Origin: an uncultured Aquimarina sp.
Lineage (GTDB): Bacteria; Bacteroidota; Bacteroidia; Flavobacteriales; Flavobacteriaceae
DNA length: 64,000 nt
Reading direction: 5' to 3'
Assembly (NCBI GenBank): GCA_947497175.1
Contig: CANMFM010000007.1
Coordinates: 124,001 to 188,000 of the forward strand
In this document: one piece after another, positions 7,635 through 48,902 of the stretch
Layout: the number at the start of each line of letters is the position of its first letter
How positions within the stretch are numbered: the stretch's first letter is position 1
Position numbers and translations under genes: made by a program
Notes under the pieces: generated by a model
What the model was told of the DNA's origin: nothing
Databases searched by the model: none
The model's input: the letters and a program-made list of their open reading frames with translations, nothing else

Positions 7635-7771
7635 AAACTATTCCTTTTGAATGATCTTAAAGGGTTTTATTAAATTTTTGACTTTTGAATTGCAATCTAA
7701 GTTAAAGATAGAATTAATGTATAAGGCGGCAAAGGGCAGACATCAATTTTTGAGTCTCTTAAGATCGTCAA

Positions 7772-8125
7772 TTAAAAAAACAAGAGGGTTTCAGTATTGA
7801 GAAAAGTAACATATAGTGTGACCATATGTATAAATTGATCAAATCCCATGATGGGGTAGAAAATACGAGGATTTTTTCGATACTTTGAAGTCAATTTGCT
7901 CGTAAAAAAATCAGTTATGCCATGCAGTATACAATTGATTACTAAAAAAGAAATCGCAACTTTGGGAGGAAATAAAATAAAACTACATACCAGTAAAACA
8001 CCAGTATATGTAATAACATGCAGAACAAGCCATTTAAAGTGTCGACTTTTACCCACTGCCATTTTTGAGGTTTGAAACGCATAATCCCCCATCCAATGTG
8101 CTAAAAGAATCCAAACGAAGTCCAT
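7772..8125 (-). CDS. DUF3307 small integral membrane protein
   Basis: 117 residues with about three to four membrane helices. The start (FVWILLAHWMGDYAFQT) and the HGITDFFTSK motif near residue 73 are typical of DUF3307. Conserved His and Asp residues within helices suggest a metal or ion site, but function is unknown. It is alone on its strand. Confidence 0.82.
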   Translation of the reverse strand: MDFVWILLAHWMGDYAFQTSKMAVGKSRHFKWLVLHVITYTGVLLVCSFILFPPKVAISFLVINCILHGITDFFTSKLTSKYRKNPRIFYPIMGFDQFIHMVTLYVTFLNTETLLFF

Positions 8126-32023: not shown

Positions 32024-32455
32024 TTATATTGTGTCAACGTGTGGAAATCTTTCATCATATGCCGCTTTTAAGAGAGTAAGCTTTGTGAAGAAAGATCTAT
32101 TTTCTTTATGTGTTCTATTGTTTTTGAAATGAACAAATTTTCCCTGGGCATGAATGCTAACTCCGTTGGTTTTGTACATATAAAATTGATAATAGGGGAT
32201 GATCCAGGTAAAGTTTCTTAAGCCTTTATTTATGGTCAGAAGTATTCCTCGTGGCCTCAACTCAATACTTCCGTAGTTTAAATCTGATACTACATTCAAA
32301 TATTTGCGTAAGTTGGGACTTACATCATTTATAATCATTCTTTTGGACCCTATCCCATTCATTTTTAATGCCTGATAGAACGAGAAAGGTTTTCCAACCA
32401 GACTGCTAATGGTTTTCTTGTTTTCTTTACTACTATATGTTGTTTCTAGTATCAT
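32024..32455 (-). CDS. Hypothetical protein
   Basis: 143 residues without signal or membrane helix. I do not recognise it. The first half is basic, the second contains RPRGILLTINKGLRNFTWIIPYYQFYMY. It lies next to the duplicated small gene; a terminator for that gene lies upstream of this one. No homolog is visible in the window. Confidence 0.6.
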   Translation of the reverse strand: MILETTYSSKENKKTISSLVGKPFSFYQALKMNGIGSKRMIINDVSPNLRKYLNVVSDLNYGSIELRPRGILLTINKGLRNFTWIIPYYQFYMYKTNGVSIHAQGKFVHFKNNRTHKENRSFFTKLTLLKAAYDERFPHVDTI

Positions 32456-32572: not shown

Positions 32573-32797
32573 CTAGGCCAAATCCGGCATTCCTTTTAAT
32601 CTTTTTTCTATTCTTTTTTTCTTTGCGGTAAGGCGTTTCATTAAATCCATCAGATCAGAATCTTTTGTCTTCTTGTAGATTTCATTAATGTTTAATATTA
32701 AAGATTTTGCTTCTCTCGAAGCGGCAACACGATCACTAGTAGTCATGTTGCTCATCTTACGACCTTCAAACTCTAGGGCTTCTTTTATTAATTTCAT
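32573..32797 (-). CDS. Small basic helical protein, copy 1 of a duplicated unit
   Basis: 74 residues, nearly all helix, with many lysines; I do not recognise the family. Features: MKLIKEALEFEGRKMSNM at the start, SREAKSL, KKTKDSDLMDLMKR and KGMPDLA at the end. The paralog at 44780-45004 is almost identical over the last 60 residues but has a stop at codon 5. A palindromic operator (32907-32940) lies just upstream, and a stem-loop terminator follows. Confidence 0.72.
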   Translation of the reverse strand: MKLIKEALEFEGRKMSNMTTSDRVAASREAKSLILNINEIYKKTKDSDLMDLMKRLTAKKKRIEKRLKGMPDLA

Positions 32798-32906: not shown

Positions 32907-32940
32907 ACTGTTTAAAGTATTTAGTAAACAATTAAACAAA
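32907..32940. promoter_or_regulatory. Palindromic operator, site 1
   Basis: ACTGTTTAA (32907-32915), 16 bases, then TTAAACAAA (32932-32940). The arms are inverted copies with two mismatches. It lies upstream of the minus-strand gene at 32573-32797. Four more sites have the same 16-base spacing. Confidence 0.65.
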
Positions 32941-33011
32941 AATTAACTATTTTATGGCTCGATAAGAGATGCTAAGCAATTGATGTACGCTAGATGTAGT
33001 CATCAAGTTCT

Positions 33012-33072
33012 GAAAAGCCGTCGAGTTGAGTGGTTTTTCATAAAAAAACAGAGAAAACTATATCGATACGTT
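33012..33072. repeat. Dispersed intergenic repeat, copy 3
   Basis: GAAAAGCCGTCGAGTTGAGTGG followed by TTTTTCATA and GAGAAAACTATATCGATAC match the stretches near 24241 and 28136. Confidence 0.5.
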
Positions 33073-33230
33073 AACGTGGTCTAGATAATAAGGATTTTGC
33101 AGAAAAATTAGTATTAATCTGAAATAATAATTAAGTAATTGTATCAAGAACAAGTACTTTTTCTTATCCGGATTCTCTTTCAAAGAAAGAAATCTTGAAA
33201 AAACTAAACAAAATTATAAAGATTTAAAGT

Positions 33231-33806
33231 ATGTCTATGGGGTCAAATGAAAAAAGAAAAATGAGGATCGATTGGTTACAAAAAGCACGTGACAGCTGGA
33301 GTCATAGAGGTCATAAGCGACCTCCATTTGCAATTGAACCAAAAAAAGGGCAGCGTTCTGTATGGGATTTTCCGCGTCCTCCGATTATCGAAAAAGTAAA
33401 TAAGCTTGTGAGAGTTCAGCATAAAGAAATCCAAATCGCGCATTCTCGCAATGCCTTGGCCATACTTGAGACGGCGAGTCCACCCACGTATTATATACCC
33501 AAAGAGGATATAAATAGGAATACACTTGTGAGCATACCGAGCAAGACCTCGATGTGCGAATGGAAAGGAAACGCAGTATACTGGGCATTAAATATCATGA
33601 TTGAACATCCCGTGGCATGGTCGTATCCTAATCCTTTTCCTGAATTTGAGGACTTAAAAGATCATATAGCGTTCTATCCTCAGCGTCTTCAATGTTTTGT
33701 AGATGAGGAACGAGTAATGGCACAATCCAGTGCATTTTATGCAGGATGGATCACTACTGATTTAACCGGCCCATTTAAAGGAGAACCAGGCACAGAACAT
33801 TGGTAA
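33231..33806 (+). CDS. DUF427 domain-containing protein
   Basis: 191 residues with a central DUF427 domain (about 55-160): VRVQHKEIQIAHSRNALAILET, SPPTYYIPKEDI, MCEWKGNAVYW, FYPQRLQCFVDEERV. DUF427 proteins have been thought to be nucleotide- or nucleic-acid-related, but the reaction is unknown. The start ATG follows an AT-rich leader. It is flanked by empty DNA on both sides, and may belong to the stress or light-linked set. Confidence 0.82.
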   Translation: MSMGSNEKRKMRIDWLQKARDSWSHRGHKRPPFAIEPKKGQRSVWDFPRPPIIEKVNKLVRVQHKEIQIAHSRNALAILETASPPTYYIPKEDINRNTLVSIPSKTSMCEWKGNAVYWALNIMIEHPVAWSYPNPFPEFEDLKDHIAFYPQRLQCFVDEERVMAQSSAFYAGWITTDLTGPFKGEPGTEHW

Positions 33807-34257
33807 TCTATATATTTTTAAATCAAATCTAAGTTTTCTGATGTTTTGCTAAAGGAATAGATAGCATCTAAGAATAAAGATATGCTTATATTATGTGTTC
33901 AACAACAATATAAGGTATCAGGATGTCTGCAAAAGGGATTATAGTAAAGCCTAACGTACTTGTATTACGCATTAAACTGATCTTGTCGATGGATCCAAAT
34001 TGGCTATGGCATAAAGCGAAATTGGTACCTCATATTCTTTTTTGTTGTTCTTCTCGAAATCTTTCATTAAAAAATTAGAGCAGAATACGCTTGACCCAAA
34101 GCCGGGATACTGGCAACGTGCAAACGAATATGAAATGAGATTAAATGTAATACATATAACAATTCAGAAAACGATTACGACAATTCAAAAAATAGTTATT
34201 TTGTTTTCTTTTTAGGAATGACATATTTGGCCCTAAATTAACCTAAAGAAAAATTAA
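33807..34257. other. Non-coding gap, possible degraded coding remnants
   Basis: No intact gene. An open stretch around 34050-34215 (reading KLEQNTLDPKPGYWQRANEYE) has protein-like character but lacks a credible start, so I cannot say whether it is a remnant. A promoter-like TTTTG (34200 region) and TATTTG precede the next gene. Confidence 0.35.
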
Positions 34258-34524
34258 ATGTCTTATAAAATCGAAGAAGATAGAGGTACTAGACTATTCT
34301 TGGTCAATTGGAGTACTGTTGGAGGAGATCTCAGAATAATGCACTTTTTTGGGTTGCATAGCATACAAATAATTCCGTTATTCGCACTAATGCTATCCAA
34401 TATATGGAAGGCTACGAATAGAAATCAGGTCTTTGCTGAAACTGTTTTTGAACTCATATGTGCTTTATGGATTGGATGTGTATGCTATCAAGCTAAACAA
34501 GGAATACCACTAATACGCCATTAA
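34258..34524 (+). pseudogene. N-terminally truncated membrane protein fragment
   Basis: 88 residues. The motif LVNWSTVGGDLRIMHFFGLHSIQIIPL resembles the middle of a longer family of membrane proteins that begin with more helices and contain a 'WST..GDLR..HF.GLH..Q..PL' pattern. Here only this motif plus two helices remain, and the frame upstream has stops. It may still be expressed from an upstream promoter. It lies just before the LytS-like kinase gene, 11 bases apart. Confidence 0.45.
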
Positions 34525-34534
34525 TTAAACCATA

Positions 34535-35614
34535 ATGTTGATCAATAAAAAGAAACGCATACAATATTTAGGGTTTAATGATTTCTGGTTTACGGTTATT
34601 GGTATTTTAATCATTAGTTTAATCACAAATTACCTATTTAATGATCCATCAGAAAGAAATTCTATAATTCTGATTCTTGTGGGATGGAGCGTATCCCTGT
34701 TTTTTACAATTTGTGATTGGTTTCTTATCCGGAGTGTCATGATTTTTTTACGAAAAAAATATCCTCATTTTCGTGACGATAAAAAACGCATCATTATCTT
34801 CTTTGTAGCTATTGTAAGTATTGTAATTTTTGTAGATTTTATCGGAGGACTTTTACTATCAGGTATTTTTAACTTATTTGGTTTTAATGCTAGTCATGTT
34901 GTAAGTCTAAAAGTGCTTTTGCCTATCATTTTAATTACGGTCATGTCAATGGCAATATATGAAGCAATTTATTATTATGTACGATTAAAAAAATCAATTA
35001 GAGAAGAAGAACAAGCAAAGCAAGTTATGATTCAGGCGCAATTGGATACCTTAAGAAATCAGGCGCAACCCCATTTTTTGTTTAATAGTTTAAATACACT
35101 ACGAGATATTATTGATCAGGATTCTAAAGAAGAAGCTAAAGGTTTCGTTGATAATCTGTCTGATGTATATCGTTTTATTATCGAGTCTGGTAACTCAAAT
35201 TTAATTTCCTTAGAAAAAGAGTTGAAGTTTGCTAAAGCTTATATTTATGTTCAATCAGAACGATTTGGAGATAATTTAAAGCTGAATTGGAATGTTCCTC
35301 GGGATAAACTCGTATTGATGATCGTGCCCATGAGTTTACAACTTTTATTAGAAAATGCTATAAAACATAACATCGTTTCTAAAGCCAAACCCTTATTGAT
35401 CACTGTTACCGTTAAGAACGATACCTTAGAGGTGAGCAACAAAATTCAAGCTAAATCAACCCAAACACCATCTACAAAAATTGGATTAAAAAATATTGAA
35501 AAACGGTATCAACTTATATCAAACAAAATGCCGATTATTAATAATGTTGGGGAGTATTTTATAGTTTCTCTTCCTTTATTAAAATCACCAAAATATGCCA
35601 TGAGAAGTAACTAA
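34535..35614 (+). CDS. LytS-like histidine kinase
   Basis: 359 residues. Four membrane helices lie in the first 150 residues (e.g. 17-35, 46-68, 84-110, 125-150). The catalytic part is of His_kinase (PF06580) type: the phospho-acceptor histidine is in QAQPHFLFNSLNTLRD, and the ATP-binding region contains LLLENAIKHNI. The response regulator starts 60 bases downstream. It probably senses a signal through the membrane part and controls a regulon through that partner. Confidence 0.88.
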   Translation: MLINKKKRIQYLGFNDFWFTVIGILIISLITNYLFNDPSERNSIILILVGWSVSLFFTICDWFLIRSVMIFLRKKYPHFRDDKKRIIIFFVAIVSIVIFVDFIGGLLLSGIFNLFGFNASHVVSLKVLLPIILITVMSMAIYEAIYYYVRLKKSIREEEQAKQVMIQAQLDTLRNQAQPHFLFNSLNTLRDIIDQDSKEEAKGFVDNLSDVYRFIIESGNSNLISLEKELKFAKAYIYVQSERFGDNLKLNWNVPRDKLVLMIVPMSLQLLLENAIKHNIVSKAKPLLITVTVKNDTLEVSNKIQAKSTQTPSTKIGLKNIEKRYQLISNKMPIINNVGEYFIVSLPLLKSPKYAMRSN

Positions 35615-35673
35615 ATAGAATTGATATGATAAGGCGATTCAATCAGATAAATTAAAAAAATAACTATAAACAG

Positions 35674-36429
35674 ATGAAAATTCTAATTGTTGAAGATGAA
35701 CCTCGTGCTGCACGTCAATTACAAAATCTATTAAGCAAAACTATTTTTGATTTTGAAGTCCTTGCTATTATCGATTCTGTTGAAGATACGGTTTCATGGT
35801 TTAGAAACAATACGACACCAGATTTAGTGTTTATGGATATTCAACTCGCGGACGGCTTAAGTTTTGAGATTTTTCAGAACATAGAAATAACTGCCCCCAT
35901 AATTTTTACTACAGCTTTTGATCAATACGCTATTCAAGCATTTAAAGTGAACAGTATTGACTATTTACTAAAGCCTATTAAACAAAATGATTTAGATGTT
36001 GCATTACAGAAATTCTCAAAATCCAGACATCTTTCAAATACTTTAGAACCAACTATTTTAAAAGAACTTTTGAGTAGTATGCAAACCCCACAAAAACGCT
36101 CAGGAATATTGGTGAAAGAGGGAAGTGGTTTTGTACAAATAAGAGTTTCAGAGCTTTTATATATGTATTCTCAGGATAGTATCACTTTTGGTATTACCCA
36201 AAACAAGCGCTACATCATAGATGAAACTATGGATCAATTGTTTGATTCTTTAGACGATACCAAATTTTACAGAATTAATAGAGGCCAGATTATTGCTAAA
36301 ATTTCAGTTCAGAAAATAGAACCTTATTTTAATCATCGCGTAAAAGTGTTAATTTCAAATCCTCGTGACCAGGAATTTATCGTAAGCAGACAAAAAACCA
36401 GTGATTTTAAAGACTGGATGAACAAATAA
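35674..36429 (+). CDS. LytTR family response regulator
   Basis: 251 residues. Receiver domain 1-120 with acidic pocket VEDEP, phosphorylation site Asp55 (LVFMDIQLAD) and Lys in DYLLKPIK; then a LytTR DNA-binding domain (about 145-250: GILVKEGSGFVQIRVSELLY, RINRGQIIAK). It pairs with the kinase upstream. Target sites cannot be picked out from the window. Confidence 0.9.
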   Translation: MKILIVEDEPRAARQLQNLLSKTIFDFEVLAIIDSVEDTVSWFRNNTTPDLVFMDIQLADGLSFEIFQNIEITAPIIFTTAFDQYAIQAFKVNSIDYLLKPIKQNDLDVALQKFSKSRHLSNTLEPTILKELLSSMQTPQKRSGILVKEGSGFVQIRVSELLYMYSQDSITFGITQNKRYIIDETMDQLFDSLDDTKFYRINRGQIIAKISVQKIEPYFNHRVKVLISNPRDQEFIVSRQKTSDFKDWMNK

Positions 36430-36543
36430 GTCTCCTATTACATTTCAAGTAGCAAAAACTACGTTTCAACAAAAAGGGCTACTTTTAAAGAAAGAATACT
36501 GCAATATTTGTGATATAATTAATCACTAAAAAACTATTATATC

Positions 36544-37830
36544 ATGAAACTAAAATGTATCACCATACTATTTTTACTTACTACAGGATTTCTTTGTGCA
36601 CAATCTGATAAAAACATGGCTACCTATGAAGAGATGGTACATAAAACAGACGAGATTTATGACAGTCTGGTTAAGATTAGAAGAGATTTACATAGGCATC
36701 CAGAAATCTCGACACAAGAAGAAAGAACCTCTAAAATAGTTGCCGAATATTTAGGAAATTTAGGGTTAGAGGTAAAAACAAATATAGGAGGACATGGCGT
36801 AGTAGGAATTCTAAAAGGAGGTAAAAAAGGTAGGAAAATAGCCTGGAGGGCAGATATGGATGCTATAAAAACTAATGAACCAGATGTTGTTAGTTTTTCA
36901 TCAAAAAACAAAGGCATACGACATATTTGTGGTCATGATGTACATACAACAATAGGCTTAGGAATTGCGAATATTCTATCTCAACAGAAAAACAATCTTC
37001 AAGGAACTGTTTATTTTATTTTTCAACCAGCAGAAGAAATGTTCACAGGAGCAAAAGATATGATTGCAGACGGTCTTTTTAATATCATCGAACCCGATGA
37101 GATTTATGGCTTACATATTGGTCCGGAAACATCTGGAACAATTAACGTAAAGGAAAATGAATTGTTTGCACATACAAAAACACTTGAGGTGAAATTCAAA
37201 CCTAGTGCCCATGAAAAGGAATTAGAAAATTTTATGAATACGCTATTAAAAGGTTTTGTTCGCAATATTGAACAGAAAGGCTCACCTTGGGATATCATAA
37301 GTAAGATTTCAGATCCTAAAATTGGATTGACAAGTAAAGAAACTATTTTTAAAGATTATTTTATCCTACAAGGGGCGGGCTTAGGTACACATAAAGGTAC
37401 TACTACTTATAAAGCTAGTTTTCTTGAAACTGATGTACAAAAAGTAAATGATCTACCTCTTGCGATAAAAAAACAAATCCTTAACTCTAAATTTAAAGAC
37501 TCTTTTATCTCTATCAGCTATTCAAAAGATTATTCGGCAACCCCAATAAATGATCCTAAACTCACAAAAACTGCATCTCAGACAATTTCCAGTTTTTATA
37601 ACAAAGAAATGTTTAAGCCATTGTACGGACAAGTTCCATATTTTGGTGAAGATTTTATATTCTATCAGCAAAAAGTACCAGGGGTATTCTTTTTCCTGGG
37701 TGGATCCAATATAGAAAAAGGTATAGTTGCTATGCCGCACTCACCAAACTTTGCTGTGGATGAAAAAACCATTAAGTATGGGGTACAATCTTTTGCATCT
37801 TTACTCTTTGAGAGAGCAAACCGTAAATAA
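36544..37830 (+). CDS. Exported M20/M40 amidohydrolase
   Basis: 428 residues with a signal peptide (to about residue 19, GFLCAQ). The M20 motifs are present: RADMDAIKT, GHDVHTTIG (metal-binding His/Asp), AEEMFTGAKDMI (catalytic Glu pair) and GEDFIFYQQKVPGVFFFLGG near the end. The short dimer-domain and substrate layout match the amidohydrolase (hippurate / N-acyl-amino-acid) branch. It should act in the periplasm. The next gene is 46 bases on and may be co-transcribed. Confidence 0.88.
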   Translation: MKLKCITILFLLTTGFLCAQSDKNMATYEEMVHKTDEIYDSLVKIRRDLHRHPEISTQEERTSKIVAEYLGNLGLEVKTNIGGHGVVGILKGGKKGRKIAWRADMDAIKTNEPDVVSFSSKNKGIRHICGHDVHTTIGLGIANILSQQKNNLQGTVYFIFQPAEEMFTGAKDMIADGLFNIIEPDEIYGLHIGPETSGTINVKENELFAHTKTLEVKFKPSAHEKELENFMNTLLKGFVRNIEQKGSPWDIISKISDPKIGLTSKETIFKDYFILQGAGLGTHKGTTTYKASFLETDVQKVNDLPLAIKKQILNSKFKDSFISISYSKDYSATPINDPKLTKTASQTISSFYNKEMFKPLYGQVPYFGEDFIFYQQKVPGVFFFLGGSNIEKGIVAMPHSPNFAVDEKTIKYGVQSFASLLFERANRK

Positions 37831-37875
37831 AAATCGGCTTTCTAAAAGTATACGTACAACTTATTACTAATCATC

Positions 37876-39528
37876 ATGAAAAAAATACATCTAATTCTGA
37901 CACTGTTATTGTTTTTACAGTTATCAGCACAAGAAACTCCAAACGTAGCGCAATGGCAAGAAGACCTGCGGTTCATACAAAAGACCATACATAAAGATTA
38001 TTCGTTTCTTTTCGTGAAAATAACGAAGCAAGATTTTGACACTCAGGTTGAAGCACTCTTTAACGATATTCCCAACTTACAAGAACACGAAATCCGTGTG
38101 GGATTGGCACGTATGATATCCCTATTTAAATATGGTCATACACAAATCCCTTATCGTACCACGGCCAAAAGCGGGATTTTACCGATCAACCTGTACCATT
38201 TTAATGATGGTGTCTATATCGAGGGGGTGCATAAGGATCAAAAAAGGACCTTAGGCGCAAAAGTATTGAAGATAGGAGATATGCCAATAGGCAAAGCTTT
38301 AGAACTCATATACCCCGTAGTTCCTGTAGAAAATGAGCAATACTTTAAAGCCTATGGTTTACGATTTTTATTATCACCAGAAGTTTTGCATGCACAACGC
38401 GTGATCCCAGAACTTTCAGAGAGGGTTACACTTACTTTAGAGAAAGAGGGAAAGGTCTTTACGCATATATTTAAAACCATCGATGTAGAAAAAAAGCCAA
38501 AAGCATTCAATTTCACAGTGCCAACAGAGGAGTGGCTCACGGCAAGAAATACAGTGACCACCCCCTTATATTTAAAGCATTTAGAAGATAAACTATTTTA
38601 TTTTGAATATTTAGAAGATATAAACACGCTCTATGTCAGACAAAGCTCAGTATTTGATGATGATAACGAAACTCTAAACCAGTTTTATAATCGACTTTTT
38701 GATTGTATCGATACGCATCGTATAGAAAAGCTCGTCTATGATGTACGTCTTAATGGTGGTGGTAATAATTACAACAATCTTCCATTACTAAAAGGAATAA
38801 TGGCAAGACCAAAAATCAATAAATCGGGTAACTTCTTTTTTATTATCGGTCGTGATACGTTTTCGGCCTGCCAAAACTTAACCAATGAGATTAGCAAATA
38901 TACAGAAGCTATTCTGGTGGGTGAACCGACTTCAGAAAATATCAATTTTTATGGAGATACGCGACCGGTAGTATTGCCAAATAGCAAGATAACCGCATAT
39001 TTATCATATTTATGGTGGCAAGATAAGCCCGCTTTAGAAAATGCAAAATGGACAGCTCCCAGTATTCCTGTCACAATGAGCTTTGATGAATATATAAAGA
39101 GTCAAGATCCTGTATTAGAAGCAGCATTAACGTTTGATGTGCAGGATTTTAAACCTCGGCCAATTGAGTATATAACTGACTTATATATATCCGGGAAAAC
39201 CCAAAAATTGGCAGAAGAACTCCCTAAAATGATACAAGACCCGCGTTATGATTTTTGTGATTTTGAAACAGAATTAAACAAAAAAGGAAATCTTTTATTA
39301 CAAAGCGGTCGTATGCCCGAAGTTCGGGCTTCTATTCAAGTATTTTCTATGATTTTGCAACTATTTCCAAACTCGGCAAGTACGTATAAAAATCTGGGAG
39401 AAGCCTATATCATGATACAAGACGCTCAAAAGGCCAGAGAAATGCTCAAAAAAGCTATTTCATTAGATCCTCATGGAAAGATTGGCCTAGCCGCAACAAA
39501 GTTGCTCTCAGAGATCGATAAATTGTAA
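37876..39528 (+). CDS. Exported S41-like peptidase with TPR tail
   Basis: 550 residues. Signal peptide ends at about residue 19 (QLSAQ). The middle (about 230-400) resembles S41 tail-specific proteases, with RLNGGGNNYNNLPL and the serine in RDTFSACQNLTNE; the Ser is in the expected place but the other catalytic residues are unclear. The C-terminal 120 residues look like TPR repeats (KNLGEAYIMIQDAQKAREMLKKA). It probably hydrolyses peptides in the periplasm or has lost activity. Confidence 0.74.
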   Translation: MKKIHLILTLLLFLQLSAQETPNVAQWQEDLRFIQKTIHKDYSFLFVKITKQDFDTQVEALFNDIPNLQEHEIRVGLARMISLFKYGHTQIPYRTTAKSGILPINLYHFNDGVYIEGVHKDQKRTLGAKVLKIGDMPIGKALELIYPVVPVENEQYFKAYGLRFLLSPEVLHAQRVIPELSERVTLTLEKEGKVFTHIFKTIDVEKKPKAFNFTVPTEEWLTARNTVTTPLYLKHLEDKLFYFEYLEDINTLYVRQSSVFDDDNETLNQFYNRLFDCIDTHRIEKLVYDVRLNGGGNNYNNLPLLKGIMARPKINKSGNFFFIIGRDTFSACQNLTNEISKYTEAILVGEPTSENINFYGDTRPVVLPNSKITAYLSYLWWQDKPALENAKWTAPSIPVTMSFDEYIKSQDPVLEAALTFDVQDFKPRPIEYITDLYISGKTQKLAEELPKMIQDPRYDFCDFETELNKKGNLLLQSGRMPEVRASIQVFSMILQLFPNSASTYKNLGEAYIMIQDAQKAREMLKKAISLDPHGKIGLAATKLLSEIDKL

Positions 39529-39993
39529 TCCCAAATGTGGTGGATGTTTGTCAAATGCAAGCATCTGCCAATTCGCTACAGTATATATATGCAATATTAC
39601 GTACTTTGGTTATGGCATTTGGCTTTGTTGGTAAAAGTAAAATTTTCTTATTCTACAGTTTATTTTAGAAGTTTTCTAGCAAATTATTCTATTCAAAGAT
39701 AATGAAGCACTTACTAAAGGATTGGAAAAGGGAGATTAGGGGAGTGCATTATACGGTTAACGAGTTACTATTTCATTTAGGAACCTTCAAAATCATATTT
39801 TCATTCTAAAACAAACCTAAATAATTTACCTGTTTCATTAAGTTCAAGTTTTCTGGAAGTCAGTAAAAATGTTGTATTAAGCCATTTTAAAACCATTCTA
39901 TTTCTTATTTTTTACTTAAAAATCTGTTAAACAATTATTTAATCTAGACAGACAAAAGTATTTCATTTTCGGTTTAAATTATATTGTTGTAAA
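39529..39993. other. Non-coding gap with dispersed repeat copy
   Basis: No gene. From 39601 a stretch (GTACTTTGGTTATGGC, later GCTTTGTTGG, TTCTACAGTTTATTTTAG, GAAGCACTTACTAA, GGGGAGTGCATTATACG) aligns with 45581-45735 in the same order. A possible half operator GTTAAACA is at 39926. Confidence 0.5.
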
Positions 39994-40027
39994 TTCGTTT
40001 AATATTTTTTATAAATAGTTAAACAAA
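39994..40027. promoter_or_regulatory. Palindromic operator, site 2
   Basis: TTCGTTTAA (39994-40002), 16 bases, TTAAACAAA (40019-40027). It ends six bases before the ATG of the 83-residue gene, so it may sit over the start of that mRNA. Confidence 0.6.
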
Positions 40028-40032
40028 ATAGT

Positions 40033-40284
40033 ATGAAGGAGAATTTTAAAGAACTATGTACCATAAACATAGGTATAGATCGATTGGAAGACAACTATAC
40101 ATTTTACAATAATGGCATGATACGACGTGTATATGATGAAAGCATCTTTAACTATAGCCTTATGACTTGGATAAAACCGGGAGAAATTGACAATATTATT
40201 AAGCGTCGACTACTCAAAAATTGTTCAAACAAATTTAAAAAACAGGTAAGGCAAATATTAGCCTTTAATTTAAGAATGAACTAA
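40033..40284 (+). CDS. Small hypothetical protein
   Basis: 83 residues, soluble, basic C-terminal half (IIKRRLLKNCSNKFKKQVRQIL). I do not recognise the family. The aromatic N-terminal half (NYTFYNNGMIRRVYDESIFNYS) could fold as a small beta unit. It is preceded directly by the palindromic operator and followed 22 bases later by the FAD oxidoreductase gene, so the two are likely one transcript. Confidence 0.65.
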   Translation: MKENFKELCTINIGIDRLEDNYTFYNNGMIRRVYDESIFNYSLMTWIKPGEIDNIIKRRLLKNCSNKFKKQVRQILAFNLRMN

Positions 40285-40306
40285 TATTTACATCTAAATA
40301 TAAGAG

Positions 40307-41587
40307 ATGAGAAAATCTGACTATAAAATCCACATTGTTGGAGCGGGTATAAGCGGATTAATTGCTGCAAATGTGTTAGAGCGATCTGGCTATCATCCGG
40401 TGATCATTGAAGCTTCTGATACTCCTGGGGGAAGAGTGAAAACAGATTACATTGAAAATTATCAAATAGATCATGGATTCCAGGTATTGCTTACAGCTTA
40501 TCCAGCCGCTCAAAAATATTTAGATTTTGAAAAGCTATTTTTACAAAAATTTTTACCAGGAGCTGTTATTTTTGAGGATGGACAACAAAAAACTATTGGA
40601 GATCCATTAAGAAATCTGTCTTTACTTTTTCCAACACTTGTAGCGAATATAGGCAGTATATCAGATAAATTGAAGATCTTAAAACTAAACAAGGATTTAA
40701 AAAAGGCAACAGTAAAAGAGATTTTCGCAGAGGAGGAAGAATCCACACTTTCATTTCTTAAAAAATTCGGTTTTTCTCACAACATTATTGAACAGTTCTT
40801 CAGACCTTTTTTCAGTGGAATATTCTTAGAGCCTGACCTTAGAACCTCTTCAAGGATGTTCAAGTTTGTATATAAAATGTTTGGAGAGGGGAGTGCTGCT
40901 ATTCCAAAATCGGGTATTGCCGAAATCACAAATCAATTGGTCACAAAGCTTTATAATACCTCTTTAACCTACAATACCAAAGTTAGAAGAGTTGAAGAAG
41001 GAAAGATTATACTAGAGAACCAGGAAGAGATAGAAAGTCATTTTACCATCATAGCTACAGAACCTAATACCGTTGTTCCTAATCTACAAAATCAGCAGGT
41101 AGGCTGGAAAAGTTGTGATACCCTATATTTTGAAACGGAAAACCGAGTTATTGAGAAGCCTTTGATTGGACTGGTGGCTGACAAGGAATCACTTATCAAT
41201 AACATCTGTTATCACACAGCTCTTCAAACCACTACTAATTCAAAAAAAGAGTTATTGTCCGTGACCGTTGTAAAAGAACACAATTTAAATGAGCACACTC
41301 TAATTGAAAGGGTTAAAGACGAACTCAAAAAACTTTGTAATATCGAGACTAATCGTTTTATTAAGCGCTATATAATCAGTCAGGCACTTCCTGATTTAAC
41401 CAACATACAATATGAGATGTCACCCTCTGAAACTAAACTAACTCCCACTATATTTATCGCGGGAGACCAACAACTTAATAGCTCACTTAATGCAGCTATG
41501 ATTTCAGGAGAAAGAGCAGCGTTAGGAGTTATTGACACTTTAGAAAATGCATTAGTTGTAGGTGAGTTTACTTCAGAGTTTAATTAA
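40307..41587 (+). CDS. FAD-dependent amine-oxidase-like oxidoreductase
   Basis: 426 residues. The FAD-binding start IVGAGISGLIAANVLERSGY and the motif GGRVKTDY are those of the flavin amine oxidase / phytoene-desaturase-like superfamily; FIAGDQQLNSSLNAAMISGERAA is the usual C-terminal FAD contact. It probably oxidises or rearranges a hydrophobic substrate; carotenoid-type substrates are possible but unproved. It follows the small gene at 40033 by 22 bases. Confidence 0.8.
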   Translation: MRKSDYKIHIVGAGISGLIAANVLERSGYHPVIIEASDTPGGRVKTDYIENYQIDHGFQVLLTAYPAAQKYLDFEKLFLQKFLPGAVIFEDGQQKTIGDPLRNLSLLFPTLVANIGSISDKLKILKLNKDLKKATVKEIFAEEEESTLSFLKKFGFSHNIIEQFFRPFFSGIFLEPDLRTSSRMFKFVYKMFGEGSAAIPKSGIAEITNQLVTKLYNTSLTYNTKVRRVEEGKIILENQEEIESHFTIIATEPNTVVPNLQNQQVGWKSCDTLYFETENRVIEKPLIGLVADKESLINNICYHTALQTTTNSKKELLSVTVVKEHNLNEHTLIERVKDELKKLCNIETNRFIKRYIISQALPDLTNIQYEMSPSETKLTPTIFIAGDQQLNSSLNAAMISGERAALGVIDTLENALVVGEFTSEFN

Positions 41588-41604
41588 TAGGTAGATTTTA
41601 ATTA

Positions 41605-41712
41605 TTAATCCTTTTTCTGATTATAATTTTTATTGTAAGCTCGTATTACAAAAAGCATCCATACTACAAAAATCGTAGTGACTATTATAGAATATATGAT
41701 GACTAGATCCAT
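41605..41712 (-). CDS. 35-residue single-pass membrane protein
   Basis: ATG at 41712 overlaps the stop of the gene at 41712-41894 (TAATG), indicating coupled translation. The product has one hydrophobic helix (IIYSIIVTTIFVVWMLFVI) followed by a basic and polar tail ending NYNQKKD. I do not recognise it. The exact overlap and the sensible topology argue for a real gene. Confidence 0.55.
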   Translation of the reverse strand: MDLVIIYSIIVTTIFVVWMLFVIRAYNKNYNQKKD

Positions 41713-41894
41713 TATGAGTTGTTTTTAAAGTAGTTAAGAAAACCGAGAATCGTTGGCGCCCATAGGCCTATAAAAATAGCTTCGAGATGCCTTCCTGCGC
41801 TGAAGGAATAGTGTGATAGACAAATAACTCCTATAACTGTAAGTAGCATTATGATATTCATCATACCCACTTTTTTAATAAAATTTTTAATCAT
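41712..41894 (-). CDS. Small two-helix membrane protein
   Basis: 60 residues with two hydrophobic helices (about 11-30 and 38-55) joined by a short loop with GRHLEA. It is coupled by a TAATG overlap to a 35-residue membrane protein gene. The palindromic operator at 41970-42003 lies between this gene and the divergent pterin enzyme gene, so both may respond to the same regulator. Function unknown. Confidence 0.62.
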   Translation of the reverse strand: MIKNFIKKVGMMNIIMLLTVIGVICLSHYSFSAGRHLEAIFIGLWAPTILGFLNYFKNNS

Positions 41895-41969
41895 ATCTAA
41901 AGTAGAAAATTGTTTGGTGTCTGTTGTATTTTCAAAATCATAGGTCTTGCAATAAAGTGTTTTATGAGT

Positions 41970-42003
41970 TTTGTTTAAAGTTTAGTTAAAAACATTAAAC
42001 AAA
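41970..42003. promoter_or_regulatory. Palindromic operator, site 3 (divergent)
   Basis: TTTGTTTAA (41970-41978), 16 bases, TTAAACAAA (41995-42003): perfect inverted arms. It lies between the minus-strand membrane pair and the plus-strand pterin enzyme gene. Confidence 0.7.
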
Positions 42004-42061
42004 TATACAATACACATTACCTTTATAAAAATTTAACACTGAAAAATAATAATTACAACTT

Positions 42062-42502
42062 ATGAATAATGAAGTACGTAGTTCTTCGAAAAGAAAAACT
42101 GCTATTATCAGAAGAGAACACTTTAACTCTGCCCATAGGCTTCATAATCCAGATTGGAATGAGGAGAAGAATCGAAGAATTTTTGGTAAATGTAATAACC
42201 CTAACTACCACGGCCATAATTATGAATTAGAGGTAAAAGTGATAGGTTATGTGCAACCTGAAACTGGATATGTTATAGACACTAAAATATTATCAGATCT
42301 GATCAAAAATGAGATAACAAACCTTTTTGATCACAAAAACTTGAATCTGGATGTGGAAGCATTTAAGAATCTAAACCCCACTGCAGAAAATATAGCAATG
42401 GTGACTTATGATATTTTGAGAGCACATTTGGATCAAAAACTAGAACTTAAAATAACATTATATGAAACACCAAGAAACTATGTTGAATATCCTTACGATT
42501 AA
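42062..42502 (+). CDS. 6-pyruvoyl-tetrahydropterin synthase / QueD-like enzyme
   Basis: 146 residues. Zinc ligands are visible in EHFNSAHRL and NYHGHNYEL; the catalytic cysteine is in FGKCNNPNYHGH; the family motif LFDHKNLNLD and ETPRNYVEYPY close the domain. Such enzymes convert dihydroneopterin triphosphate into pyruvoyl- or carboxy-tetrahydropterin. The context (no other queuosine genes, a stress or light-linked set) favours a pterin cofactor over queuosine, but this is inference. The operator lies upstream. Confidence 0.86.
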   Translation: MNNEVRSSSKRKTAIIRREHFNSAHRLHNPDWNEEKNRRIFGKCNNPNYHGHNYELEVKVIGYVQPETGYVIDTKILSDLIKNEITNLFDHKNLNLDVEAFKNLNPTAENIAMVTYDILRAHLDQKLELKITLYETPRNYVEYPYD

Positions 42503-42555
42503 AAAATAGAATATTTACATCATTTATTTTACAACACTCATAAACCTTTAAGACG

Positions 42556-43092
42556 ATGCGAATAATCAAAAAAATTAAAACAAGACCCCAAAAATCAAGT
42601 AATCAGGGGAGACTGTCAGCACAATCACTTCATAACATAAAAATAAATAGTTTGGAAGGGAAGGAGATTGACTTAACGGATTTTAAAGGAAAAAAGATGT
42701 TATTTGTCAATGTGGCGTCTAAATGTGGTTTCACAAGTCAATATAAAGAGTTACAAAAGCTTTATAATGTTTACCAAGATCAACTTATGATTATTGCATC
42801 TCCTTGTAATCAATTTGGTAGGCAAGAACCTGGAAGTTCTTCAGAAATTTTATCGTTTTGTGAACGAAATTATGGCATCACGTTCTTAGTTACTGAAAAA
42901 ATTGATGTTACAGGAAATAGTCAACACGCACTCTACAATTGGCTGACAAACAAAGAAAAAAATGGTAAGAAAAGTTCAAGTGTTAAATGGAATTTTCAAA
43001 AATACTTGGTTGACGAAGAGGGGAAACTTATAGACTACTATCTATCGACTACGAACCCAATGAGTTCAAAAATAATACAACATCTTAAGTAA
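42556..43092 (+). CDS. Glutathione peroxidase family protein
   Basis: 178 residues. The peroxidatic cysteine is in NVASKCGFTSQY, the Gln in SPCNQFGRQEPG and the Trp in VKWNFQKYLVDEEG, the normal catalytic set. It has a 20-residue basic N-terminal extension (MRIIKKIKTRPQKSSNQG) that most relatives lack; it is not a signal peptide. In bacteria without glutathione these enzymes use thioredoxin. It follows the pterin enzyme gene by 53 bases and is probably co-transcribed. Confidence 0.88.
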   Translation: MRIIKKIKTRPQKSSNQGRLSAQSLHNIKINSLEGKEIDLTDFKGKKMLFVNVASKCGFTSQYKELQKLYNVYQDQLMIIASPCNQFGRQEPGSSSEILSFCERNYGITFLVTEKIDVTGNSQHALYNWLTNKEKNGKKSSSVKWNFQKYLVDEEGKLIDYYLSTTNPMSSKIIQHLK

Positions 43093-43095
43093 CTA

Positions 43096-43385
43096 TCATT
43101 CAATTGCACGATCTTTTTCATAGAGATTATGAACGTGCAATATGATCAAACCAAAACTCACTGCTATCACAATCAAAATGGTGTTCATCAAACCTTCTAC
43201 ACCAAACAATAATCGTATTAAAATGGTAGAAATAATAAAACCCGAGTTTTGAATGACTTTATAAAGTTCATCGGTGTAAAAAAGGAAAACAATAACAGAA
43301 CAACGTCTACTATTATTAGGATTGCGTTAAGAACATTTTTTCCATGATACTCTTTAAAGAGAATACGTATAGTTGATAGTAGCAT
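43096..43385 (-). pseudogene. Frameshifted small membrane protein gene
   Basis: On the minus strand the ATG at 43385 starts MLLSTIRILFKEYHGKNVL and runs into LLLFSFF. At a run of six T the frame then leads to a stop, whereas the neighbouring frame continues YTDELYKVIQ and goes on to a second helical part ending HNLYEKDRAIE, stop at 43096-43098. One extra T in the run restores a single frame of 96 residues with four hydrophobic helices. Either a real frameshift or a sequencing error. It is divergent from the fasciclin gene, with the operator between. Confidence 0.65.
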
Positions 43386-43408
43386 GAATTATATCAGCCA
43401 CTGTTAAT

Positions 43409-43442
43409 TTTGTTTAACTAATTTAACTAAACTTTAAACAAA
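43409..43442. promoter_or_regulatory. Palindromic operator, site 4 (divergent)
   Basis: TTTGTTTAA (43409-43417), 16 bases, TTAAACAAA (43434-43442): perfect inverted arms. Between the frameshifted membrane gene and the fasciclin gene. Confidence 0.7.
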
Positions 43443-43470
43443 AATAAACGTATTAACATAAAGCCTTGCG

Positions 43471-43478
43471 TATATTTG
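43471..43478 (+). promoter_or_regulatory. -7 box of the fasciclin gene
   Basis: TATATTTG fits TAnnTTTG. The start codon is 18 bases downstream. No good -33 box is seen, which would suit activator-dependent transcription. Confidence 0.5.
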
Positions 43479-43496
43479 AACAAAACATTGTTAATT

Positions 43497-44084
43497 ATGA
43501 AAAAAATATTTGTAACCACTTTTTTATTAACCGGGCTTTTAGCGACAGCAGCTTGCACCAATAATAATAAAAAAGACACTCAGAAAAGCGAAACAGTAGA
43601 ACAAGAAACTGTTGAAGTAAAAAAAGAAGAAGTTGTCGAAACACCAACCATTGTTGGGGTAGCAGCGGCTAATAAGAACTTCACTACATTGGTAACGGCT
43701 GTAAAGGCTGCTGGGCTAGTAGAAACATTAAATGGTAAAGGGCCATTTACGGTGTTTGCTCCCTTAAATGATGCTTTTGCAAAACTACCTGCGGGTACGG
43801 TAGAAGGGCTTTTAAAACCGGAAAGCAAAGAAACATTGACTGCAGTACTAACGTATCACGTAGTATCTGGTAAATTCGTGGCAGCTGACGTAGTGAAAGC
43901 CATTCAAGACGGTAATGGTACCTTTGTAATTACGACAGTACAAGGTGGTACATTAACAGCATCATTAGATGGTGATAGTGTAATTCTTACGGATGCTAAA
44001 GGAGGGAAATCAAAAATAGTCCTGACCGATGTTGCAGCATCAAATGGCGTGATTCATGCTATTGACACAGTAGTTATGCCATAG
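43497..44084 (+). CDS. Fasciclin-domain lipoprotein
   Basis: I choose the ATG at 43497 ([20 protein letters not shown]) because it gives a clean lipoprotein signal; 195 residues. A charged linker (about 25-55) leads to one FAS1 domain (58-195): [61 protein letters not shown]1 domains mediate adhesion or bind small hydrophobic molecules. It has its own terminator. Fasciclin genes are often found in flavobacterial light- or stress-linked loci. Confidence 0.9.
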
Positions 44085-44113
44085 TGTATACAGCCTAAAA
44101 TAGGATATTATAC

Positions 44114-44152
44114 AAAGCCACTTTCAAAATATAATTTTGAAAGTGGCTTTTA
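44114..44152. terminator. Terminator after the fasciclin gene
   Basis: AAAGCCACTTTCAAAAT and ATTTTGAAAGTGGCTTT form a stem of 17 pairs followed by T residues. It also faces the convergent DUF2237 gene. Confidence 0.85.
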
Positions 44153-44184
44153 TTTACATTGCCAGTATCGCAAACGGCAATATA

Positions 44185-44556
44185 TTAAGGATTTACAGAT
44201 TCATACTTAATTAAAACATCAAGGCTTACATACTGTAATGCTTTTTGATGTGTAGCTTCTAAAACTATTGGCGGAGCCTTACCAGCTTTCTCTGCCTCTA
44301 ACCATCTCGATATACATAAGCACCATTTATCCCCAGATGATAGTCCAGGAAAGTTCAAATAGGGAAGGGGTGTAGAAAGATCATTTCCTTTGGTTTTGGT
44401 GTATTCTAGAAACTCTTCGGTCACAATCGCGCACACTACGTGGGTACCTCTATCTTCTTGAATAGTTCTGCAATACCCATCTCTAAAATACCCTGTTGCC
44501 GGTTCATAGCAACAAGGTTGTAAAGGCGTTCCTAAAACATTGAGTTCAATATTCAT
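44185..44556 (-). CDS. DUF2237 family protein
   Basis: 123 residues with the family's motifs: NVLGTPLQPCCYEPATGYFRDG, RGTHVVCAIVT, DLSTPLPYLNFPGL, GDKWCLCISRW and the C-terminal ATHQKALQYVSLD. Several conserved cysteines suggest a metal or redox site. Function unknown; in other flavobacteria it often accompanies photolyase-type genes, which fits the neighbours, although no photolyase is in this window. Confidence 0.88.
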   Translation of the reverse strand: MNIELNVLGTPLQPCCYEPATGYFRDGYCRTIQEDRGTHVVCAIVTEEFLEYTKTKGNDLSTPLPYLNFPGLSSGDKWCLCISRWLEAEKAGKAPPIVLEATHQKALQYVSLDVLIKYESVNP

Positions 44557-44640
44557 TTTGTATCAAAAGTATTTTTAATTTAACAACTAGATTATCGTTT
44601 AGAGCACCTTTTTATTTATAATATCTAAACATATCATTTA

Positions 44641-44685
44641 AAAAAGAATACCCCGCAGAGGAACAAAGGGGCAGGGTATCCTTCA
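44641..44685 (-). terminator. Terminator of duplicated small gene, copy 2
   Basis: AAAGAATACCC with GCAGGGTATCCTT form an imperfect stem, with T on the minus strand downstream. It is clearly related to 32466-32514. Confidence 0.6.
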
Positions 44686-44779
44686 TTTTAAACAACTAAC
44701 CAACTATTATTCACAATGTCATTTTAATCTTCTTTTTTCGTTGGCATTAATAAAACAATTAATATAACAATGAGTAACA

Positions 44780-45004
44780 TTAAATCAAACTTGGCATTCC
44801 TTTTAATCTCTTTTCTATTTTTCTTTTCTTCTCAGTAAGCCGTTTCATAAGATCTATTAAATCTGAATCTTTAGTTTTCTTATAAATTTTATTAATGCTC
44901 AATAGTAATGATTTTGCTTCTCTAGAAGCCACAACTCTATCACTGGTAGTCATATTAGACATTTTTCGATTTTCAAATTCTATCGCGTTTTATATTAATT
45001 TCAT
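44780..45004 (-). pseudogene. Small basic helical protein, copy 2, with in-frame stop at codon 5
   Basis: The frame from the ATG at 45004 reads M-K-L-I-stop-N-A-I-E-F-E-N-R-K and then continues in frame from the Met at 44962 as MSNMTTSDRVVASREAKSL to the end. Copy 1 (32573-32797) reads MKLIKEALEFEGRK at the same place, so the TAA stands where copy 1 has AAA. Sixty residues from the internal Met remain intact and could be translated. The operator (45114-45147) and terminator are also duplicated. Confidence 0.7.
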
Positions 45005-45102
45005 AATAGCCGTTTTGTTTTTGGCTTTCTAAAATATTTTAAAACTATTATCTTTTCTGAAATAATTGAAAGTTTAGTGTAAAATACATCTAATTTGCAG
45101 TG

Positions 45103-45110
45103 TAAATATA
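45103..45110 (-). promoter_or_regulatory. Candidate -7 box of the copy 2 gene
   Basis: Minus-strand TATATTTA, three bases from operator site 5, as in copy 1. Confidence 0.45.
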
Positions 45111-45113
45111 CGT

Positions 45114-45147
45114 GTTGTTTAACGTATTCATTTATGAATTAAACAAA
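45114..45147. promoter_or_regulatory. Palindromic operator, site 5
   Basis: GTTGTTTAA (45114-45122), 16 bases, TTAAACAAA (45139-45147); one mismatch between arms. It lies upstream of the duplicated small gene, copy 2. Confidence 0.65.
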
Positions 45148-45580: not shown

Positions 45581-45735
45581 GTACTTGCGTTATGTCACTT
45601 TGCTTTGGTCAAAAGCAAAGTTTTTTAGTTCTACGGTTTATTTAAAAGTTTTATAACGAAATGTTTCTTTAAAAAAGGTAATGGAACACTTATTATGTGA
45701 GCCGACAGCAGGAGGGGAGTGTAATGTGTGTGGAA
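45581..45735. repeat. Second repeat element just inside the island's left end
   Basis: Begins GTACTTGCGTTATGTC and includes GCTTTGGTC, TTCTACGGTTTATTT, GGAACACTTATTATG and GGGGAGTGTAATGTG. The same order of words occurs at 39601-39756. Confidence 0.5.
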
Positions 45736-45739
45736 TAGG

Positions 45740-45747
45740 TATCTTTG
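45740..45747 (+). promoter_or_regulatory. -7 box upstream of vsr
   Basis: TATCTTTG fits TAnnTTTG exactly and ends four bases before the ATG at 45752, so the transcript would be nearly or fully leaderless. Confidence 0.5.
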
Positions 45748-45751
45748 TAAT

Positions 45752-46177
45752 ATGTCTGATGTACACTCAAAAAAAATTAGAAGCTATAATATGAGCCAGA
45801 TTAAAGGCAAAAACACAAAGCCTGAGTTGTTGGTTCGAAAATTCTTACATTCTAATGGTTTTAGATATAAACTTCACGATAAGACATTACCCGGAAAACC
45901 GGACATAGTATTGCCAAAATATAAAACTATAATTGAAGTACAAGGATGTTTCTGGCATGGTCATCAGAATTGTAAATACTTCATACTTCCTAAAAGTAAT
46001 ACTGATTTTTGGAAAAATAAAATAGCTAAGAATATAGAAAGAGATAACATTAATACTCAAAAGCTTAAAGAACTTGGTTGGAATGTTATCTTTCTATGGG
46101 AATGTCAACTGAAAAAAGATAGAATTGATTCAAGTCTGAAACAATTAGTTGATGACATAATTTCCTTAAAAGATTAA
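45752..46177 (+). CDS. vsr: Very short patch repair endonuclease
   Basis: I start at the ATG at 45752 (MSDVHSKKIRSYNMSQIKGK), the usual Vsr N-terminus; 141 residues. Family motifs: NTKPELLVRKFLHSNGFRYKLHD, LPGKPDIVLPKYKTIIEVQGCFWHGH (active-site Asp and metal-site His/Cys) and GWNVIFLWECQLK. Vsr nicks at T:G mismatches made by deamination of 5-methylcytosine, so it protects the host from mutation caused by the two m5C methyltransferases downstream. Confidence 0.9.
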   Translation: MSDVHSKKIRSYNMSQIKGKNTKPELLVRKFLHSNGFRYKLHDKTLPGKPDIVLPKYKTIIEVQGCFWHGHQNCKYFILPKSNTDFWKNKIAKNIERDNINTQKLKELGWNVIFLWECQLKKDRIDSSLKQLVDDIISLKD

Positions 46178-46204
46178 TTTTTTTACTCACTTGATATAAA
46201 AATC

Positions 46205-46225
46205 GCAAATTATTTTTAAATTTGC
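46205..46225. promoter_or_regulatory. Candidate controller-protein site 1
   Basis: GCAAATT-N7-AATTTGC is a perfect palindrome about 40 bases before the start of the XRE regulator gene. A second (AATCA-N5-TGATT) is at 46239-46253. Confidence 0.45.
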
Positions 46226-46238
46226 TAAAAATAGGTCA

Positions 46239-46253
46239 AATCACTTTTTGATT
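46239..46253. promoter_or_regulatory. Candidate controller-protein site 2
   Basis: AATCA-N5-TGATT, 12 bases before the regulator ATG. With the palindrome at 46205 it gives two adjacent sites, the usual arrangement for C-boxes. Confidence 0.35.
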
Positions 46254-46264
46254 AAATCAATAAT

Positions 46265-46597
46265 ATGGCAAGTTTCGGACATTTCATAAAATCGGAAAGA
46301 GAAAAACGACAATGGACACAGACTGAATTTGGTGCAAAAATCGGAATTAACACAAGTGCCATTAGTCGTATTGAAAATGGAAGTCAAAAGTTCAGTAAAT
46401 CAAAATTAAAGGAACTTTCTAAACTATTCAATATCGAACTTCAAAAAATAACAGACTTGTTTTTTGCTGACAAATTCGCAAGGGAGGCATTTAAATATAA
46501 ATGCTCTGAATCCATTTTTTCGGTTGCAGAAGATACAGCAAATTATTTAAGAAACACTAATTCAAAACAAGGACAATTCAATTTTGATAATGAGTAA
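46265..46597 (+). CDS. XRE-family controller of the restriction-modification system
   Basis: 110 residues. A helix-turn-helix (about 8-62: WTQTEFGAKIGINTSAISRIENG) is followed by a short C-terminal extension rich in Asn and Gln. Small XRE proteins in front of methyltransferase genes usually time the expression of modification before restriction. Its stop overlaps the methyltransferase start by eight bases. Two palindromes upstream could be its binding sites. Confidence 0.82.
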   Translation: MASFGHFIKSEREKRQWTQTEFGAKIGINTSAISRIENGSQKFSKSKLKELSKLFNIELQKITDLFFADKFAREAFKYKCSESIFSVAEDTANYLRNTNSKQGQFNFDNE

Positions 46598-48900: not shown

Positions 48901-48902
48901 CA

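Follow-up and report, generated by a model that had tools for sequence, protein, structure and literature searches.

The stretch analysed here, 64,000 nucleotides of an uncultured Aquimarina sp. (hereafter the window), carries five copies of a palindrome whose two arms are separated by 16 bases (N16). Most probably (at a probability of about 0.8) this palindrome serves as operator for a CarH/LitR-like MerR regulator that has a vitamin B12-binding domain and would act as a repressor in the dark when loaded with adenosylcobalamin (AdoCbl) and be released by light. This reading is built directly on the sites and where they lie, on how they depend on the regulator across genomes, on a clade-linked switch of the operator, on conserved B12 contact residues and on an encoded PduO-type adenosyltransferase; that the protein binds the DNA, that it represses and does not activate, and that light is its signal are the inferred steps of the model.

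The original prediction had described the five palindromes as intergenic elements with a constant N16 spacer, and all five were found as such (Table 1), with 17 sites at up to two mismatches in the whole genome (4.59 Mb) against 2 for the reversed pattern. Within the window, six matches at up to three mismatches compared with 0.81 expected (100 shuffles, largest 3); the sixth, at 21733 with three mismatches, is at chance level. When the spacer was varied from N6 to N26 at up to two mismatches, N16 gave five matches, N7 one and all other spacers none, and the reversed control gave none. At three mismatches the own-genome signal was lost (59 sites vs 48 in the control) and this threshold was unusable for adding members; the sole such site retained was that at the regulator gene (merR), which is backed by relatives. 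The 12 own-genome N16 matches outside the window lie in stretches fetched for holding sites and are not a test of the spacer. In sets fetched by protein and not by motif, N16 also stood out: among 80 named relatives, the counts (control in brackets) were 29 (1) for N16, 10 (2) for N17, 12 (0) for N25, 16 (2) for N26 and 11 (3) for N6, and N16 gave 20 (0) around 30 rhodopsin genes and 47 (1) around 90 regulator genes. The N6, N25 and N26 matches lie nearly all at the start of merR, where the AT-rich start-codon sequence yields arm-like words. Since five of the ten N17 matches are good-looking crtI sites, a spacer of 16 is the rule and not a law.

The regulon is wider than the window alone could show. 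Ten of the 17 own-genome sites are regarded as sound (five in the window, two at C9, two at C6 and one at C15). The sites at C7:42922, between a peroxiredoxin-like and an endonuclease III-like gene, and at C1:184632, at a DUF2490-like gene (all names by eye), are likely ones, and those at C1:385474, C2:11283, C2:291642, C8:136139 and C8:312994 are probably chance matches. Genes for folE, photolyase and MerR-type proteins had been suggested as possible followers of such matches, and all three carry a site. The rhodopsin at C9 has proteorhodopsins as its best solved relatives. The two operators between the retinal enzyme gene (blh) and the rhodopsin gene (C9:15709-15777, numbered 7710-7778 in locus L018) have one base between them, and paired sites about 40-45 bases apart also occur at the rhodopsin loci L095, L099 and L102.

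A relative of the regulator was found in 120 of 149 Flavobacteriaceae genomes, namely the own genome, 110 others at an identity of at least 40% (one of which, G106, matched over residues 107-301 only) and 9 with only a diverged copy (34-37%). The 110 ortholog genomes held 846 sites vs 311 for the reversed control (Wilcoxon 1.7e-17), with sites exceeding controls in 99 of them. The corresponding counts were 34 vs 27 (Wilcoxon 0.49) in the nine genomes with only a diverged copy and 82 vs 95 (Wilcoxon 0.31) in the 29 genomes where no regulator was found. Excess of the motif is confined to genomes in which the regulator has a known ortholog.

The regulator gene at C8:263650 encodes a protein of 298 amino acids (aa) and heads a crtI-crtB operon, with its start codon inside an operator copy. 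The N-terminus of the protein is a MerR winged-helix domain (PF13411, 54.8 bits, cut-off 21.6). Its C-terminus is a B12-binding domain (four-helix bundle and Rossmann fold), in which the AdoCbl contacts Wx9EH and His177 (ExHxxG) are present. In 79 orthologs Trp131, Glu141 and His177 were each found in 79 and His142 in 75, and the same four contacts were found in 8/8 each of the diverged regulators that were aligned (8 of 11). A linkage to carotenoids is given by the crtI (NCBIfam CrtID, 733.8 bits, cut-off 640) and phytoene synthase genes behind the regulator gene, and AdoCbl supply by the PduO-type adenosyltransferase (PF01923) encoded at C6:484257. Flavobacterial regulator loci were also met on contigs titled as Rhizobium, Klebsiella pneumoniae and Bifidobacterium bins (L347, L353 and L365), titles which look wrong.

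Of the 122 regulator places in relatives, 90 were examined (30 first loci, and another 60 chosen from the strong end of the list together with all the weakest), comprising 79 orthologs and 11 diverged copies. In 60 of the 79 orthologs a site at up to four mismatches has its left arm 25 bases before the start codon and the ATG in its right arm, and in all 60 TA precedes the left arm, giving TAnnTTTG. At the same threshold, a site lies between -300 and +40 of merR in 73/79 orthologs vs 8/79 for the reversed pattern (hand count). For the 80 named relatives the corresponding count was 76 vs 10 in the control, and 67 vs 3 at three mismatches; the named and unnamed sets may share species. In the Aquimarina loci L296-L299, an arm-like ATTAAACAAG (or a close word) follows 10 bases past the right arm, inside the coding start of merR, and may be a third half-site or codon sequence only. 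Upstream of crtI, behind merR, a site at up to two mismatches was found in 60 of 159 windows, and 56 of these 60 sites contain an exact TAnnTTTG at spacer bases 9-16 in gene direction. There is no site between merR and crtI in the own genome, where crtI follows directly behind merR. At some crtI sites (L048, L206, L351) the ATG touches the right arm, and the mRNA leaders would be a few bases long if transcription starts 5 bases after TAnnTTTG.

The original prediction had named two outcomes that would speak against it, a chance-level number of sites and a lack of conservation upstream of orthologs, and both checks came out in its favour: the genome-wide count exceeds the control, and conserved sites were also found at target genes. 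A site was seen upstream of 15 of the 30 rhodopsin genes and of 14 of the 30 fasciclin relatives, with 0 for the reversed control in both sets. Among rhodopsin loci without a site, L116 (contig end, no upstream DNA) and L118 (partial match) could not show one; of the 24 rhodopsin genomes with a found regulator, 13 have a site (hand count). Close paralogs of 6-pyruvoyl tetrahydropterin synthase (PTPS) have a site in four of five cases (the own gene included, and one in variant form), against 0/25 for the queD-like PTPS genes used as an inner control (L156, with its shorter flank, included). Relatives of the FAD gene gave a weak result, with a site within 800 bases upstream in 3/13. Photolyase relatives (4/29) are a weak test, the operator lying about 1.4-1.5 kb upstream and the loci holding 1.5 kb; three more relatives show a site at 1.5-1.9 kb past the start of the gene.

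A second form of the operator, TTTGTCTAA-N16-TTAGACAAA, was first met at the close PTPS paralog of genome G066. At one mismatch it occurs at 21 places in 14 of the 149 genomes (reversed control 8 places in 8), and 12 of these places (control 1) belong to the 11 genomes that have a diverged copy of the regulator. Among the remaining nine, several combine a common arm with a variant arm; the variant pattern, though rare, is not confined to diverged-copy genomes. Five genomes have it no more than 160 bases upstream of their diverged regulator, and a sixth has it there at two mismatches (6/11); at one mismatch it is found at the regulator gene in 0/79 orthologs. In a tree of the 11 diverged regulators and 27 orthologs, the six variant-site regulators belong to a single clade of nine members (support 0.999); beside this clade branches a tenth diverged copy, which has a three-mismatch site of the common form, and the eleventh groups with orthologs. 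In G066 (80% complete, only the diverged copy found) the exact variant precedes a fasciclin relative, a PTPS relative and a CIA30 gene; a TetR-ABC1 pair there is preceded by a hybrid site made of one common and one variant arm. The exact variant also precedes the 74-aa gene in G135, where the common regulator is present as well, and a one-mismatch variant in G038 stands before a gene homologous to the 143-aa gene of the window, followed by folE. The same kinds of genes have thus taken on other operator letters together with the regulator, and N16 was kept. This swap of letters with the regulator clade is the strongest evidence for which protein binds. Variant operators at L378 and L380 (G066) precede the CIA30-domain gene and a Porph_ging gene, possible further members of the regulon.

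The operator is located at the core promoter, either on it or directly beside it. TAnnTTTG has been described as the flavobacterial sigma-A -7 box in passages of one report (PMC9723704), and the operator overlies this box at merR and crtI. Exact boxes were placed over 176 distinct sites in the examined loci, with both orientations read: 72 lie at offset 17 and 6 at offset 16, vs a background of 0.5 per offset, with most of these 78 from crtI sites and 23 from other loci. Another 44 lie at offset -4 and 10 at offset 37-39. Outside merR, offset -4 is mildly enriched (TA in 40/208 arms vs a mean of 24.5 elsewhere), with neighbouring places also raised. The own genome has boxes at offset -4 for the 83-aa gene (one mismatch) and for the minus-strand 60-aa open reading frame (ORF), fasciclin, the 55-aa ORF and merR (all exact), at 16-17 for rhodopsin (one mismatch) and the photolyase run (exact), and at 37-38 for both small-gene copies and TetR (one mismatch) and for folE (exact, with a second exact box at -13). 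These registers follow one another at intervals of about 20-21 bases, or two helical turns. Bound to both arms, a protein would cover the -7 box or the bases immediately upstream of it, which fits repression.

It has been reported that CarH binds DNA in the dark as an AdoCbl oligomer and blocks RNA polymerase, and that light releases it (PMC8156234, in the passages on CarH); light derepression is therefore the simplest model. In the dark, the AdoCbl-loaded regulator would bind the two arms, each with a TnnACA, as one oligomer, cover the sigma-A -7 box and keep transcription off. Light would split AdoCbl, the regulator would let go, and one gene set would be switched on together, including proteorhodopsin, the retinal-making enzyme, carotenoid synthesis, photolyases, GTP cyclohydrolase and PTPS for pterins, as well as the peroxidase, fasciclin, small membrane-type proteins, the TetR/ABC1-kinase pair and the regulator itself. 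The suggestion that one regulator governs a light- or stress-linked gene set is supported by the comparative data, which point to a protein of the MerR/LitR kind that the original prediction had listed among its candidates.

The genes beside the window sites (Table 1) are as the original prediction had named them, including the duplicated small gene, and the minus-strand TATATTTA box is indeed found three bases past the sites at 32907 and 45114. The 74-aa protein has 555 relatives at E 0.001, and the named ones among the 120 matches listed are flavobacterial. The family is widespread in Flavobacteriaceae, lacks a named domain and stands repeatedly behind an operator (L123, L187, L382); such sites come partly from pattern-fetched loci and were not counted as a test. 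The 143-aa protein is 48% identical over 126 residues to the G038 protein behind the variant operator, where folE lies two genes further on, and the 143-aa gene is possibly a member of the regulon. The genome holds a second, queD-like PTPS-family copy. The divergent small ORFs occur as pairs (60 and 35 aa, 55 and 30 aa), and their look of membrane proteins was judged by eye. A restriction-modification island (window 45728-49856), with a Vsr endonuclease, an HTH protein, two C-5 cytosine methyltransferases and an NgoFVII-type restriction enzyme, adjoins the 45114 site.

Table 1 Predicted operators and neighbouring genes in the window and, where a position carries a C prefix, elsewhere in the same genome
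Feature	Position	Strand	Description
Operator, 2 mismatches	32907..32940	-	Upstream of the 74-aa gene, then the 143-aa gene; -7-like TATATTTA 3 bases past right arm
74-aa conserved small gene	32573..32797	-	No Pfam or NCBIfam match
143-aa gene	32024..32455	-	Behind the 74-aa gene
Operator, 1 mismatch	39994..40027	+	-7-like TAAATTCG (1 mismatch) overlaps left arm; ATG of the 83-aa gene 5 bases past right arm
83-aa gene	40033..40284	+	No family match
FAD-dependent oxidoreductase	40307..41587	+	Amino_oxidase, PF01593
Operator, perfect, divergent	41970..42003	+	Exact TATATTTG at arm for the minus-strand 60-aa gene; PTPS-GPx on the plus strand
60-aa ORF	41712..41894	-	Membrane-type by eye; then 35-aa ORF 41605-41712
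PTPS, extra paralog	42062..42502	+	PF01242
Glutathione peroxidase (GPx)	42556..43092	+	PF00255
Operator, perfect	43409..43442	+	Between fasciclin (+) and 55-aa ORF (-); exact TAnnTTTG at arm, both directions
Fasciclin-domain gene	43476..44084	+	PF02469; ATG probably at 43497
55-aa ORF	43218..43385	-	Membrane-type by eye, divergent from fasciclin
Operator, 1 mismatch	45114..45147	-	Upstream of the second small-gene copy; TATATTTA 3 bases past site
60-aa second copy of the 74-aa gene	44780..44962	-	82% identical
Two operators one base apart	C9:15709 and 15744		Between divergent Brp/Blh-type retinal-forming enzyme (PF15461) and rhodopsin (PF01036)
Operator	C6:406992		Before GTP cyclohydrolase I (folE)
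Operator	C6:415076		Before gene run DUF2256, photolyase, DPRP, photolyase
Operator	C15:10657		Before TetR_C_23 protein and ABC1 kinase; divergent htpG-like gene (by eye)
Operator, 3 mismatches	C8:263625		Over the start of the MerR-type gene, then crtI and crtB

Several facts weigh against a light-released CarH-like repressor at these sites. The regulator scores 68.6 bits on the NCBIfam CarH equivalog, for which the cut-off is 400, and His132 is absent in 79/79 orthologs (Gln in 78, Leu in 1), the diverged set having Gly in 7/8. In the CarH of Thermus thermophilus (TtCarH), this residue is described as ligating cobalt after light, its loss hindering the break-up of the tetramer, and an earlier report differs (passages of PMC10442372). 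Partly because of this absence the regulator is called CarH-like, and the flavobacterial proteins must release by another route or sense something else. TtCarH and its relatives are also described as using 11-base direct repeats (passages of PMC8156234). Concerning the sites, PTPS, blh, DUF427 and htpG have no exact -7 box overlapping the site in gene direction, the control exceeds the motif in 5/110 ortholog genomes, and 5/11 diverged regulators have no variant site (4/11 have no site of either form at four mismatches). At two mismatches 15/30 rhodopsin genes lack a site, and 2/6 of the rhodopsin genomes in which no regulator was found have one (both drafts, 73% and 81% complete). Proteorhodopsin expression was termed constitutive in Dokdonia PRO95 in a passage of PMC3587595, so that not every flavobacterium need follow the model.

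The alternative that survives best, although an unlikely one, is that a CarH-like protein does bind the operator and answers to B12 supply, redox state or a partner protein instead of light, as the precedents of Myxococcus xanthus CarA and the B12-free LitR classes would allow. The missing His132 suits such a signal, as do the statements that CarA keeps the B12 motif without needing B12 (passages of PMC8156234) and that class II LitR answers to a LOV partner (passages of PMC9758184). However, Trp131, Glu141 and His177 never vary and His142 hardly does, a conservation scarcely expected if the function had been lost; many targets belong to light biology (photolyases, proteorhodopsin, retinal, carotenoids), and an adenosyltransferase is encoded. 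It is considerably less probable that another regulator binds, such as the TetR-type protein at C15 or a protein near the crt operon judged CRP-like by eye, with the CarH-like gene merely a target. The TetR gene itself has a site and a palindrome suits a dimeric TetR or CRP protein, but the arms switch with the clade of the CarH-like protein, and it is the CarH ortholog that the excess of the motif follows. A promoter of an alternative sigma factor (-35/-10 pair) or an RNA hairpin in place of a protein operator is highly improbable: the sites are close to gene starts and the AT-rich stem could pair in RNA, yet the palindrome has a nearly fixed spacer with TAnnTTTG inside or beside it in several registers, and the left arm at merR is part of the -7 box (as passages of PMC9723704 define it) and hence upstream of the predicted RNA start. 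Chance matches in AT-rich DNA, for which the AT-rich arms and the near-control three-mismatch counts could speak, are ruled out at zero to two mismatches by the shuffle, reversed-pattern and 149-genome controls, and this explanation is practically negligible.

For the CarH-like repressor, the data lean, on balance, towards a family-wide B12-photoreceptor regulon which would place proteorhodopsin, its chromophore, carotenoids and photorepair under one direct light switch, with an inverted-TnnACA N16 operator, a -7 box at set registers, His132-free photochemistry, and an operator swapped with the regulator in one clade. The control of flavobacterial proteorhodopsin can now be tested with a candidate regulator, a precisely defined operator and a list of genes. 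Many marine bacteria must take up vitamin B12, and such a regulon would link energy harvesting in the surface ocean to this vitamin. The natural pairs of operator and regulator clade offer a ready specificity test for light-controlled gene expression. Among the papers listed in searches of open-licence PMC full text (judged by titles and abstract starts), none links a CarH/LitR operator with proteorhodopsin or reports an operator of this kind from Bacteroidota; as far as this search goes, the new elements are the operator with inverted arms at N16, its distribution over Flavobacteriaceae, its swap with the regulator clade, and the presence of proteorhodopsin and the retinal enzyme among the genes concerned.

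It has been reported that CarH/LitR light regulons with photolyase, folE and carotenoid genes exist (passages of PMC9758184 and PMC8156234). In Bacteroidota, a Chryseobacterium paper speculates on a CarA/LitR-like role of a crtB-adjacent gene, its relevant passages naming no operator (PMC7064467), and a passage of a Dokdonia study states that the regulation of proteorhodopsin needs further work (PMC3587595). The present gene set is like the class II LitR regulon of Pseudomonas (PplR/PmlR2), described as a light regulon with photolyase, folE and a cryptochrome-like gene, although class II LitR keeps the four-helix bundle only and binds T(G/A)TACA-type sites, and PmlR2 works with a LOV protein (passages of PMC9758184). 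The arm contains the TnnACA of the CarH half-site nAnnTnnACAn (compared by eye with a passage of PMC8156234). As in the CarH/LitR class I proteins of Thermus thermophilus, M. xanthus and Bacillus megaterium, a MerR domain is joined to a B12 domain with Wx9EH and the His177 motif, the gene heads a carotenoid operon, and the operator overlaps the core promoter. Whereas CarH uses three or four 11-base direct repeats, here two half-sites stand inverted at N16 (rarely 17); inspection of the operator spacer by eye showed no 11-base repeat of TnnACA. Further differences from class I are the change of His132 to Gln, sites also at proteorhodopsin and the retinal enzyme, the Bacteroidota -7 box and a score below the NCBIfam cut-off. 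Classical MerR regulators (MerR, CueR, ZntR) bind a palindromic operator at the promoter. The element studied here shares this arrangement and differs in arm centres 25 bases apart, a -7 box in several registers and a B12-type partner domain.

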